Below are positions 4,812 to 12,585 of a stretch of DNA of 43,012 nt, one piece after another. Origin of the DNA: Clostridia bacterium (lineage in GTDB: Bacteria; Bacillota; Clostridia; Oscillospirales; JAAYXM01). The notes beneath the pieces are model-generated. The model saw only the letters and a program-made list of their open reading frames with translations, was not told the origin of the DNA and did not search any database. The stretch lies in assembly GCA_017559855.1 (NCBI GenBank), contig JAFYQP010000043.1, positions 1-43,012 of the forward strand, written 5' to 3'. The position numbers and the translations under genes are program-made. The first letter of the stretch is position 1; every line of letters begins with the position of its first letter.

Positions 4812-7253
4812 TTACCTGCCTTCAGTAAATGCCTTAATATTGGAAAGGTTAGGAATCTTCTCAAAATTATCACCGGAGATTCTGACAAGTGTGGGTGCTT
4901 GAAGAACGCCATACTGCTTTGCAAGTTCGGGCTCCTGCTCTGCGAAAATCTTGGTGAACTTAATTCCTGCTTTTTCAAGGAAATGTCCTGCCATCTTACA
5001 GTTCGGGCAGGTTTCGGTAGCGAAGAGAATGATTTCCTCTGCCGCATCTTCCCAGTTCGGGCAGGTTTCGGTAGCGAAGAGAATGATTTCCTCTGCCGCA
5101 TCTTCCGTTGCAATACCGGTTACCACATCATTTGCCTCAACCTTAGCGGAAGCACCTTCCCAACCCTTCTGACCGAATTTCTCCGGGTTATATACCTTTC
5201 TTTCACGGTATTCCTGGCTCTTACCGTCGTTCCAATTCTTAACCGGACGGTAGTAACCGGTAATACGGCTATATACCTCACAAACCTCGCCACAGTCAGG
5301 ACAGGTATGAACTTCACCTGCAAGATAACCATGGTTCTTACATACGGAATATGTGGGAGACAAGGTGTAGTACGGGAGTTTGTAGTTATGTGCGATAGTG
5401 CGGATAAGGTTAGCAGCAGCCTTCCAATCCGGCAGTTTCTCACCTAAGAATGCGTGGAATACGGTACCGGAAGTGTAAAGTGTCTGGAGATCGTCCTGAA
5501 CGTCAAGTGCTGCAAAAATATCGTCGGTATAGCCAACCGGTAAGTGGGATGAGTTGGTGTAGTAGGGGGTATCACCCATTGTCTTATCGGTAGCGGTAAC
5601 GATATCCGGATAACGCTGAACATCATGCTTTGCAAGACGGAAACTTGTGGACTCTGCCGGAGTTGCCTCAAGGTTGTAGAGGTCGCCGTACTTCTCCTGA
5701 TAGTCGGAGAGACGCTCTCTCATATGGTTGAGGACATCCTTTGCAAATTCCTGAGTTTCCTTATGTGTAAGGTCCATCTTAAGCCACTTTGCATTTAAGC
5801 CAACCTCGTTCATACCAACAAGACCGATGGTAGAGAAGTGGTTTGCAAAGGTGCCGAGATATCTCTTGGTGTAGGGGTAGAGACCTTCGTCAAGTAACTT
5901 TGTGATAATGTCACGCTTAATCTTAAGAGATCTTGCGGAGATATCCATTAAGCGGTCAAGTCTCTTGTAGAAATCTTCTTCATTCTCTGCAAGAAAAGCA
6001 ATACGGGGTAAGTTAATGGTAACAACACCAACAGAACCTGTGCTCTCACCGCTTCCGAAGAAACCGCCGGATTTCTTGCGGAGTTCACGGAGATCAAGAC
6101 GGAGACGGCAGCACATACTTCTTACGTCGCTGGGCTCCATATCGCTATTGATATAGTTGGAGAAGTAAGGAGTGCCGTATTTGGAGGTCATCTCAAAGAG
6201 AAGTTTGTTATTCTCGGTCTCGGACCAGTCAAAATCTGATGTGATGGAGTATGTGGGAATGGGATATTGGAAACCACGACCGTTAGCGTCACCCTCGATC
6301 ATAATCTCAATAAACGCCTTGTTGATCATGTCCATCTCACGTTTACAGTCTTTATACTTAAAGTCCATTTCACGGCCGCCAACGATTGCGTTGAGTTCTG
6401 CAAGGTCATTGGGCACTACCCAGTCAAGGGTAATGTTGCTAAAGGGTGCCTGAGTACCCCAACGAGACGGGGTGTTAACGCCGTATACAAAGGACTCAAT
6501 ACACTTCTTAACCTGATCATAGTCAAGGTTATCTGCCTTTACAAACGGAGCAAGATATGTATCAAAAGAGGAGAATGCCTGAGCACCTGCCCATTCATTC
6601 TGCATAATACCTAAGAAGTTAACCATCTGGTTACAGAGGGTTGCAAGGTGCTTTGCAGGTGCGGAAGTAATCTTACCTGTAACGCCGCCGAGACCTTCTT
6701 TAATTAACTGCTTTAAGGACCAACCTGCACAGTAGCCTGTAAGCATTGAAAGGTCGTGGATATGAATGTCAGCATTCTTGTGTGCACTTGCAATTTCGTC
6801 GTCATAAATCTCAGACAACCAATAATTTGCGGTAATTGCACCGGAGTTGCTTAAAATAAGACCGCCGACGGAATATGTAACGGTGGAATTTTCCTTAACA
6901 CGCCAGTCGGTAACCTTAACGTAACTGTCAACGATGTCCTTGTAGTCAAGCACGGTGGACTTCATCTCACGGATTTTCGCTCTCTGACGGCGGTATAAGA
7001 TGTATGCCTTTGCAACATCTGCATAACCTGCCTTTACAAGAACAGACTCAACACTGTCCTGAATGTCCTCAACCGAGATGTGGTGATTCTTAATCTTCGG
7101 CTCAAACTCCGCGGTTACTTTAAGTGCAAGGAAATCGATAATATTATTGTTATAATCTTTTTCCTGTGCGTCAAATGCCATGCTGATCGCTTCGGCAATC
7201 TTGGAAATATCAAAGTCAACAATCTTACCGTCTCTCTTAAGTACGTTATACAT
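4812..7253 (-). CDS. nrdD: anaerobic (class III) ribonucleoside-triphosphate reductase with C-terminal fused redoxin domain
   Basis: NrdD reduces NTPs to dNTPs with a glycyl radical. In order, the 813 residues show an ATP-cone (about 1-95); the catalytic barrel with GYCAGWSL (Cys175) and MCCRLRLDL (Cys381/382); a zinc site with Cys638, Cys651 and Cys654; and the glycyl-radical motif RITGYYRPV with Gly666. Ordinary NrdD ends near residue 695. Here a linker leads to a thioredoxin/glutaredoxin-like domain with CPNC (Cys749, Cys752) and a cis-proline motif QAPTL. Residues 718-734 are an 18-codon duplicate of the domain's start, with the second cysteine replaced by Trp (CPNW). The start has TAAGGAGG before it. 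The promoter carries an NrdR box, and trxB follows 4 bp downstream. Confidence 0.95.
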   Translation of the reverse strand: MYNVLKRDGKIVDFDISKIAEAISMAFDAQEKDYNNNIIDFLALKVTAEFEPKIKNHHISVEDIQDSVESVLVKAGYADVAKAYILYRRQRAKIREMKSTVLDYKDIVDSYVKVTDWRVKENSTVTYSVGGLILSNSGAITANYWLSEIYDDEIASAHKNADIHIHDLSMLTGYCAGWSLKQLIKEGLGGVTGKITSAPAKHLATLCNQMVNFLGIMQNEWAGAQAFSSFDTYLAPFVKADNLDYDQVKKCIESFVYGVNTPSRWGTQAPFSNITLDWVVPNDLAELNAIVGGREMDFKYKDCKREMDMINKAFIEIMIEGDANGRGFQYPIPTYSITSDFDWSETENNKLLFEMTSKYGTPYFSNYINSDMEPSDVRSMCCRLRLDLRELRKKSGGFFGSGESTGSVGVVTINLPRIAFLAENEEDFYKRLDRLMDISARSLKIKRDIITKLLDEGLYPYTKRYLGTFANHFSTIGLVGMNEVGLNAKWLKMDLTHKETQEFAKDVLNHMRERLSDYQEKYGDLYNLEATPAESTSFRLAKHDVQRYPDIVTATDKTMGDTPYYTNSSHLPVGYTDDIFAALDVQDDLQTLYTSGTVFHAFLGEKLPDWKAAANLIRTIAHNYKLPYYTLSPTYSVCKNHGYLAGEVHTCPDCGEVCEVYSRITGYYRPVKNWNDGKSQEYRERKVYNPEKFGQKGWEGASAKVEANDVVTGIATEDAAEEIILFATETCPNWEDAAEEIILFATETCPNCKMAGHFLEKAGIKFTKIFAEQEPELAKQYGVLQAPTLVRISGDNFEKIPNLSNIKAFTEGR
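4999..5106. repeat. perfect 54-bp tandem duplication inside nrdD
   Basis: 4999-5052 and 5053-5106 are identical by eye over 54 bp, and the similarity stops at both outer edges. It is in frame (18 codons). It duplicates the first beta strand and the CPN half of the redox motif of the fused redoxin domain. Confidence 0.95.
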
Positions 7254-11106: not shown

Positions 11107-11135
11107 TTGCAAATTTATGTCGATTATACTATTAT
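11107..11135 (+). promoter_or_regulatory. promoter of the DUF4430/ECF gene pair
   Basis: TTGCAA (11107-11112) and TATTAT (11130-11135) are separated by 17 bp and precede the AAAGGA RBS. Confidence 0.6.
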
Positions 11136-11159
11136 ATTAGGAAGAAAGGAATGGTACAT

Positions 11160-11561
11160 ATGAAAAGAACAGGCGTTTTATCTCTATTTCTCGCCCTGCT
11201 CCTCCTTTGCTCCTGCAGTGGAACTTTTGAAACCGCGGTATATAATGAAGACGCAACACTCGGCACAGGTCTTAAAACCCTTACCGTCCTTATAACCGAT
11301 GCTGAGAAAACAATTACCTTTACTATAAAGACAGACGCCGAAACCGTTGGCGAGGCACTAACCGAGCACAATCTTATTGCCGGTGAAAAGGGACAGTTCG
11401 GCCTTTATATAAAAATGGCAAACGGTGTTCGAGCAGACTTTGAAAAAGACGGTGCATATTGGGGCTTTTACGGCAAAAACGGCGAATATATGAATTCAGG
11501 TGCTGATACCACCGAATTTGCAGATGGAGATACATATGAACTCAAATACACGAAGGGATAA
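11160..11561 (+). CDS. DUF4430-domain lipoprotein
   Basis: The 133-residue product begins with a type II signal peptide. MKRTG is followed by a leucine-rich core and LCSC, which fits a lipobox with the modified cysteine at 19 (Cys17 is an alternative). The remainder matches the DUF4430 pattern seen in bacterial relatives of the C-terminal domain of transcobalamin: ETVGEALTEHNLI, then DGAYWGFYGKNGEYMNSGAD, then the FADGDTYELKYT end. The start at 11160 is chosen because AAAGGA is 9 nt upstream; the in-frame ATG at 11151 abuts it. Its last 26 bp overlap the ECF S-component gene. It is probably a membrane-anchored ligand-capture protein for that transporter. Confidence 0.85.
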   Translation: MKRTGVLSLFLALLLLCSCSGTFETAVYNEDATLGTGLKTLTVLITDAEKTITFTIKTDAETVGEALTEHNLIAGEKGQFGLYIKMANGVRADFEKDGAYWGFYGKNGEYMNSGADTTEFADGDTYELKYTKG

Positions 11562-12075
11562 AAGGTCCTTAACCACAAAGGAGATTTGCATCTTTGCTCT
11601 ACTCGGTGCAATCATGTACTGCTCCAAGGCTATTATGGAATTTTTGCCTAACATCCATATTGTAGGCGTACTTATTATGGCATACACTCTTGTATATCGT
11701 ACAAAGGCACTTGTCCCGCTTTACGTTTTTGTTTTCCTCTGCGGCATTTTTGGCGGTTTTTCCGCTTGGTGGGTTCCTTATTTATACGTTTGGTTGCCGC
11801 TTTGGGGTGTCACCATGTTGCTTCCGAAAAGCATGGGAAAGGCTGGTATCTTTGTATATTCTTTAATCTGTTCACTTCACGGCATTGTATTCGGCACACT
11901 TTTTGCCCCCGTTCATGCACTTCTTTTCGGCCTTGATTTTAATGGTATGATTGCCTGGATTATCGCGGGACTCCCCTGGGATTTAACCCACGCAATCGGA
12001 AACTTTGTTGCCGGGTTTCTCATTATGCCCATAAGCACACTTCTTGGGAAAATAAAAAACTTGTCTTTTCGCTAA
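11536..12075 (+). CDS. ECF-transporter substrate-binding (S) component
   Basis: The 179-residue protein has about six transmembrane helices after a short basic N-terminus. The first helix follows LTTKEICIFALLGAIMY, the alanine-rich S-component pattern that docks on EcfT. Later segments include GGFSAWWVPYLYVWLPLWG and GLPWDLTHAIGNFVAGFL, typical of S units. Energy would come from a shared EcfA-EcfA'-EcfT module encoded elsewhere. The ATG at 11536 is preceded by GGAGATACAT. The substrate is unknown; the upstream overlapping DUF4430 lipoprotein suggests a corrinoid or another vitamin. No riboswitch is visible in the short leader. Confidence 0.8.
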   Translation: MNSNTRRDKRSLTTKEICIFALLGAIMYCSKAIMEFLPNIHIVGVLIMAYTLVYRTKALVPLYVFVFLCGIFGGFSAWWVPYLYVWLPLWGVTMLLPKSMGKAGIFVYSLICSLHGIVFGTLFAPVHALLFGLDFNGMIAWIIAGLPWDLTHAIGNFVAGFLIMPISTLLGKIKNLSFR

Positions 12076-12110: not shown

Positions 12111-12542
12111 ATGAAAAAGTTTTTTGCAGAATTTAAGGAATTTATTTCAAGAGGTAACGTTCTTGATATGGCTATCGGTGTTGTTGTCGGTACTGCTTTC
12201 AAGGCTATCATCGACTCGCTGGTAAAAGATGTTATTATGCCGGTTATCGGCTGGATTATCGGCGGTATTGATTTCTCAAGTTTTGCCGTAACCCTCTCTC
12301 AAAAAGAGGTAGATGGCGAAATCATCGTAAACGCACTTACATACGGCAACTTTGTCAACACCATAATCAGTTTTATCATTATTTCTTTCTGTCTCTTCGT
12401 GGTTGTAAAGGTAATCAACGGCATACGCAGAAAGAAAGAAGAGGCACCGGCAGAGCCTACTACAAAAAAATGTCCCTTCTGTTGCAGTGAAATCGCAATT
12501 GAGGCTACCCGTTGTCCCAACTGTACATCTGAACTTAAGTAA
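12111..12542 (+). CDS. mscL: large-conductance mechanosensitive channel with C-terminal zinc ribbon
   Basis: The 143-residue product begins with the MscL signature FKEFISRGNVLDMAIGVVVG in TM1. It continues through IMPVIGWIIGGIDFSSF, and TM2 is NFVNTIISFIIISFCLFVVV. MscL forms a pentameric pore that opens under hypo-osmotic membrane tension. After the usual end near residue 105 there is a short Pro/Glu linker and then CPFC...CPNC (KKCPFCCSEIAIEATRCPNC), a zinc-ribbon-like tail that E. coli MscL lacks. The RBS is TAGGAGGT. It has its own promoter and terminator. Confidence 0.95.
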   Translation: MKKFFAEFKEFISRGNVLDMAIGVVVGTAFKAIIDSLVKDVIMPVIGWIIGGIDFSSFAVTLSQKEVDGEIIVNALTYGNFVNTIISFIIISFCLFVVVKVINGIRRKKEEAPAEPTTKKCPFCCSEIAIEATRCPNCTSELK

Positions 12543-12550
12543 AAACAGTT

Positions 12551-12585
12551 ACGGCGTTCTCTTTTAAAGAGAACGCCGTTTTTTT
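12551..12585. terminator. bidirectional terminator, mscL / minus-strand small gene
   Basis: A 14-bp perfect stem (12551-12564 with 12566-12579) is followed by seven T residues. Its edge overlaps the stop region of the minus-strand gene at 12584. Confidence 0.9.

Follow-up and report, generated by a model that had tools for sequence, protein, structure and literature searches.

A DUF4430 lipoprotein gene overlapping a CbrT-like S-component gene in a Clostridia genome: a probable corrinoid uptake module

Layout of the locus

The window, meaning the whole 43,012-nucleotide stretch analysed here, comprises bases 1–43012 of contig C36 in a Clostridia genome of 1.58 Mb (83 contigs, 95.9% complete). 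It carries a lipoprotein gene whose end overlaps the start of a membrane protein gene, and the features of this pair are as follows.

11107–11135, + strand: promoter-like site TTGCAA-17-TATTAT, from a consensus scan (consensus match only), 24 nt 5' of the lipoprotein start
11160–11561, + strand: DUF4430 lipoprotein gene, open reading frame of 133 aa; PF14478 at 30.3 bits, 3u7z by sequence at E 1e-13; probable CbrS homologue
11160–11216, + strand: signal peptide with lipobox LCSC and predicted lipidated Cys19, from sequence and column conservation
11340–11555, + strand: DUF4430 domain (Pfam, residues 61–132) with a transcobalamin beta-domain-like fold in the predicted model
11536–12075, + strand: CbrT-like ECF S-component gene, open reading frame of 179 aa from an internal ATG; profile match to 6fnp_A, predicted model
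11536–11561, + strand: 26 bp overlap of the two genes, from the reading frame coordinates

The mechanically called frames are longer at their 5' ends. That of the lipoprotein begins at 11151, with 11160 taken as the start, and that of the membrane protein begins at a GTG at 11500, with the ATG at 11536 taken instead. If the promoter-like site is real, it leaves no space for a riboswitch ahead of the lipoprotein gene. The pair is flanked upstream by a glutamine synthetase-like gene on the opposite strand, named from a reading of its translation, and downstream by mscL (Pfam and NCBIfam). Within 12111–12579, MscL bears a zinc-ribbon-like tail by weak Pfam matches only, and a strong terminator-like hairpin follows at 12551–12579. 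Elsewhere in the window, positions 4812–7253 encode what reads in translation as an anaerobic ribonucleotide reductase-like protein with a C-terminal internal repeat, DAAEEIILFATETCPN, present twice.

The membrane protein matches CbrT by sequence profile

The membrane protein (P0002) has no match in Pfam or NCBIfam, so that its designation as an ECF S-component in the initial annotation was at first an inference. Searched alone against the PDB by sequence, it returned nothing. A profile built from P0002 together with 72 relatives (73 members) gave a single PDB match at E ≤10: 6fnp_A, with an E-value of 3e-11 over positions 6–175 of 178. This entry is ECF-CbrT, which according to the available text of PMC5997447 imports cobalamin and cobinamide, is not subject to competition by hemin, binds CN-Cbl at 9.2 nM as CbrT in membranes, and is active in liposomes without a lipoprotein.

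The predicted model of the S-component (pLDDT 92.7) has six helices. Foldseek returned no match to it at E ≤0.001. VIA-align re-scores Foldseek's selection, and the absence of 6fnp (CbrT) from its rows is hence not counter-evidence. Ranks 1–20 of the VIA-align list are all S-type subunits (Z 10.1–13.8), followed by pMMO subunits (Z 9.8) and BtuM with cyanocobalamin (Z 9.2); values below about 13 may reflect the helical-bundle arrangement alone, and only ranks 1–4 exceed 13. Two of the entries in ranks 1–20, 4huq and 4m5b, are ECF structures, though their titles do not state this. Because Foldseek alone was weak and only the first four VIA-align ranks pass a Z of about 13, the family assignment rests chiefly on the sequence profile, by which the membrane protein is a homologue of CbrT, itself the S-component in a cobalamin ECF transporter that has been characterised. 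The profile match, backed by the fold, thus bears out the initial designation. P38, N39, D149, H152 and N156 vary little or not at all in the S family and are retained in two lactobacillar S proteins, with which P0002 shares 22–24% identity.

The lipoprotein has a fold like the transcobalamin beta domain

PF14478 matches the lipoprotein over residues 61–132, scoring 30.3 bits (cut-off 23.8). In an alignment of 66 lipoprotein members (A2), 64 are matched by PF14478 at E 0.01, and the Cys19 column of the LCSC lipobox is at least 90% conserved. Both the lipobox and the 26 bp overlap described in the initial annotation were confirmed. The window lipoprotein is the sole DUF4430 match in its own genome.

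The predicted model (pLDDT 88.2) is closest to 3u7z, which is also found by sequence (E 1e-13) and which tops the VIA-align comparison with a Z of 16.2 and an rmsd of 1.2 over 94 residues. Transcobalamin, intrinsic factor and haptocorrin follow at Z 11.5–12.8 over 95–98 residues with 12–18% identity, and the next row reaches only Z 6.2. Included among these matches is 5np4, an isolated beta domain with cyanocobalamin, and Foldseek likewise placed beta-domain folds at ranks 3–18 (E 2.3e-5 to 3.0e-4). By sequence the lipoprotein profile matched transcobalamin-1 weakly (E 0.064), and the pattern G..A...D..YW....GE...G is common to the two. The available text of PMC5599065 indicates that the isolated human beta domain binds CNCbl and was crystallised with it, and that it requires CNCbl in order to associate with the alpha domain. 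Because the isolated human domain binds CNCbl, corrinoid capture by the bacterial lipoprotein can be proposed by analogy, and we regard corrinoid binding by this protein as somewhat more probable than its absence.

The gene pair is conserved among relatives

Genome contigs of 84,980 species, one genome per species, were scanned for relatives, and 75 homologous loci were returned. In 68 of them the gene directly upstream of S, on its own strand, encodes a DUF4430 protein, a count that takes in L076, where the contig ends after the S start, and L075, where the S frame is split over two reading frames. The pairing is therefore not a matter of chance. The seven other loci are L006, which is at a contig edge, and six that lack the gene despite available upstream sequence (L039, L058, L067, L068, L069 and L073). 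By eye, L068 and L069 have other genes directly upstream of S. Also by eye, a cyclophilin-type gene lies directly 5' of S in L039, L058, L067 and L073, which have neither DUF4430 nor a riboswitch.

Apart from S and DUF4430, no flanking-gene cluster exceeds 15 of the 75 loci under a crude longest-ORF gene model. The ten next commonest clusters (5 to 15 loci each) are represented by an ABC ATPase, a response regulator, an RNA methyltransferase, a Mur ligase, a glycosyltransferase, a recombinase, an Mn-catalase, an amylase, a trypsin-like protease and one protein without a match; none of the nine with Pfam names is a vitamin gene. The sign that would have refuted the reading in the initial annotation, neighbours from another vitamin pathway, thus did not appear among these clusters.

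A second sample, drawn from the class and comprising 196 genomes, probably shares some species with the first; in it a strong S match (E < 1e-20) was found in 21 genomes, own genome included. DUF4430 is directly upstream in 18 of these, is absent in L100 and L101, and in L103 the locus is cut by the contig end. The domain is frequent in other settings, being present in 86 of the 196 genomes as against the 21 with a strong S match.

On a quick FastTree phylogeny, the window S-component groups with the six S proteins that have no DUF4430 partner and with L056 (support 0.865, with several weak nodes inside the group). Of these relatives L056 has both DUF4430 and a riboswitch, and the other six have neither. 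Because of this grouping, the branch that carries the window copy is less certain than any other in the family.

A phage origin of the S gene was also considered, since two records labelled 'Bacteriophage sp.' hold it, and was rejected: the one inspected has genes that read as gyrase- or topoisomerase-like and looks bacterial. In MT839276.1 (L118, 317–1295) the DUF4430–S pair lies beside gyrase-like genes, and this record is probably a mislabelled bacterial fragment.

Cobalamin riboswitches precede most pairs

When 69 loci were searched with Rfam (L006, L051, L055, L059, L061 and L063 were left out), a cobalamin riboswitch at or above the gathering score was found upstream of the pair in 25 (23 RF00174 and 2 AdoCbl-II). 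Three more (L028, L030 and L072) were found below that score in E-value mode, and the searched loci contain one other cobalamin riboswitch at gathering score, in L019, where it lies downstream of S. Two models were then built from the loci themselves, R1 from 4 sequences and R2 from 15, which match by construction. R1 matches 34 loci, all upstream on the gene strand, and no further match at E ≤10 turned up in the 1.06 Mb searched, which contained the window. R2 gave 39 matches at E ≤1. Of these, 28 are upstream in as many loci, one is downstream in L019, and the remaining 10 are weak, 8 of them overlapping R1 sites. The two sets are disjoint, and together they place a cobalamin-type riboswitch in 62 of the 75 loci, all 62 being among the 68 that have DUF4430. 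Relative to the lipoprotein start, the match ends 37–396 nt upstream (median 109), with starts assigned by a rule of our own. The R1 alignment, an AdoCbl-II-like set that was fitted to the structure of the model, covaries, with 91.7% of cells paired compared with 78.1% when shuffled and at most 43.2% when slid. Riboswitch class largely tracks the S tree.

The DUF4430 loci without a riboswitch are L052, with only 60 nt of upstream sequence, L003, with 572 nt and a group II intron match at 278–418, and L019, L029, L045 and L050. None was found ahead of S in the six loci that lack DUF4430 and have upstream sequence. In the second sample together with two genomes of the same family, RF00174 adjoins 10 of 19 pairs by coordinates and R1 matches none of the 19; the two same-family relatives have no riboswitch beside the pair. 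A riboswitch in the window itself was not found in any search, and neither RF00174 nor AdoCbl-II was detected in the window or its own genome with Rfam, R1 and R2. The suggestion in the initial annotation that a corrinoid is the ligand is thus strengthened for the family by the riboswitches, by CbrT homology and by lactobacillar synteny with a B12-dependent reductase and an adenosyltransferase (see below), but the window copy does not share the riboswitch.

As a separate observation, three related loci each have a ZMP/ZTP riboswitch just 3' of S (L018, 8686–8770; L038, 8669–8752; L074, 8637–8720).

Lactobacillar and plasmid counterparts

The published gene order in L. delbrueckii is nrdJ-cbrS-cbrT-pduO, and cbrS is named without description in the available text (PMC5997447). 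A plasmid search with a stretch of CbrT returned 39 records, five of which were inspected among the 20 listed. In L. intestinalis the order is nrdJ, DUF4430, a CbrT-like S gene and an adenosyltransferase gene; in L. plantarum it is nrdJ, adenosyltransferase, DUF4430 and S. For L. reuteri, nrdJ and DUF4430 were found with an S match in two unannotated pieces, and E. raffinosus has DUF4430 and S in a stretch without an annotated B12 gene. In an E. faecalis plasmid the CbrT-like gene is 148 bp from a divergent B12-dependent reductase gene with no DUF4430 between them. Because the L. intestinalis order matches the published one, the window pair is probably of the cbrS-cbrT kind; on the basis of this synteny we infer that cbrS encodes a DUF4430 protein, and the window lipoprotein is probably a CbrS homologue. 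In a record of S. variabile labelled as a plasmid (L119, 1769–4479), which was recovered both by P0001 and by the CbrT stretch, a RACo-type corrinoid activator gene is followed by DUF4430 and S, and the DUF4430 protein there has no lipobox Cys.

B12 context of the host genome

Genes for EcfA, EcfA' and EcfT are present in the same genome on contig C15, with PF02361 over its cut-off and both ATPases over the TIGR04520/TIGR04521 cut-offs. The host also has metF. In addition, a MetH-like protein and a radical SAM protein each carry a B12-binding domain, the former scoring under the NCBIfam metH cut-off and the latter under the NCBIfam cut-offs. Neither a FecCD-type permease nor CobS was found in the assembly, from which about 4% of the genome is missing. 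Among the routes searched, the window pair is therefore the only corrinoid route recognised in this host.

Proposed function and alternatives

The CbrT homology of the S-component, the transcobalamin beta-domain fold of the lipoprotein and the cobalamin-type riboswitches ahead of most relatives together lead us to propose, with a probability of roughly 0.75, that the pair is a module for corrinoid (vitamin B12) uptake, of the cbrS-cbrT kind. The case is strong for the family, whose substrate is very likely a corrinoid, and good for the window copy, for which the same substrate is likely. The lipoprotein, tethered outside the membrane, would capture a corrinoid and pass it to the S-component, which would bind it and dock for import on the EcfA-A'-T module, whose genes lie elsewhere in the genome, and the imported corrinoid may supply the MetH-like protein.

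The better-surviving alternative, which we consider rather unlikely, is that the S-component imports the corrinoid alone and that the lipoprotein binds no ligand, serving instead as an aid to S assembly or stability, a surface anchor or a sensor. The in vitro function of partnerless ECF-CbrT (available text of PMC5997447) is in keeping with it, as are the S genes without DUF4430 in 6 of the 75 loci, 2 of the 21 class genomes (L100 and L101) and E. faecalis. It does not readily accommodate, however, the beta-domain fold and the residue pattern that the lipoprotein has in common with transcobalamin-1, or the retention of its gene in 68 of 75 loci, 62 of them behind a riboswitch.

Transport of another ligand, such as heme, free metal or another cofactor, is improbable. 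ECF-type heme import is reportedly found in Lactobacillus sakei, presumably in a system that includes DUF4430-like proteins. The label of 3u7z is putative metal-binding protein, and except for L056 the window branch has no riboswitch; heme ECF systems do exist, as the available text of PMC7299338 indicates. On the other hand, the riboswitches at 62 of 68 loci, the match of the S profile to CbrT and the failure of hemin to compete in ECF-CbrT (PMC5997447, available text) all disfavour heme as the family substrate, and the host has a MetH-like protein with no FecCD or CobS found.

More tentatively, the lipoprotein and S-component of the proposed corrinoid module may clamp the ligand face-to-face. 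In a more speculative and rather doubtful extension, the pair would be a split transcobalamin in which the lipoprotein, as the bacterial beta domain, covers one corrinoid face and the S-component, in place of the alpha domain, covers the other. Larger clostridial operons encoding a separate toroid-like protein, a DUF4430 lipoprotein and ECF subunits would then be related versions, pointing to a bacterial origin of animal B12 carriers. Three loci, L112 (3545–8616), L114 (506–6906) and L117 (4777–14670), hold clostridial operons that combine a toroid-like protein with a DUF4430 protein and ECF subunits, and these look like a separated transcobalamin. Prenyltrans matches the toroid-like protein over the cut-off in L112 and under it in L114 and L117; L112 and L114 have an A-A'-S fusion, and an RF00174 riboswitch lies upstream of the operon in G149 (L114) and G139 (L117).

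The pair is a candidate import route in many uncultured Clostridia. It makes testable the question of why an ECF system retains an extracellular partner, as well as whether the domain common to animal B12 carriers and bacterial uptake systems is so by descent.

Comparison with known systems

BtuG surface lipoproteins of Bacteroides capture B12 and work with the outer-membrane BtuB system. The window lipoprotein resembles them in the idea of a B12-capturing surface lipoprotein, but BtuG belongs to an outer-membrane BtuB system and its fold is not known to be related. RUMGNA_00854 of Ruminococcus gnavus (3u7z) has the same domain (Z 16.2, rmsd 1.2), although it is labelled a putative metal-binding protein. 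With the beta domain of transcobalamin, intrinsic factor and haptocorrin the lipoprotein shares a fold (Z 11.5–12.8 over 95–98 residues), whereas the bacterial protein stands alone as a lipoprotein without an alpha domain and is only 12–18% identical.

A dedicated lipoprotein partner had been judged notable in the initial annotation. The pairing is real, but such a partner is already in print: a table row in PMC9963975 reads 'additional lipoprotein component of putative cobalamin ECF transporter', the same source separately places a DUF4430 gene of L. rhamnosus near rtpR, and cbrS stands before cbrT in PMC5997447, all as far as the available text of these sources goes. The DUF4430/S pair is thus not new in kind. 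A literature search returned no test of DUF4430 or CbrS function, most subscription papers being outside its reach. The closest known system is cbrS-cbrT of Lactobacillus delbrueckii (ECF-CbrT, 6FNP). The window pair differs from it in not adjoining nrdJ or pduO; the S-components are homologous over nearly their full length, and in L. intestinalis, as in the published cluster order, the DUF4430 gene directly precedes the S gene.
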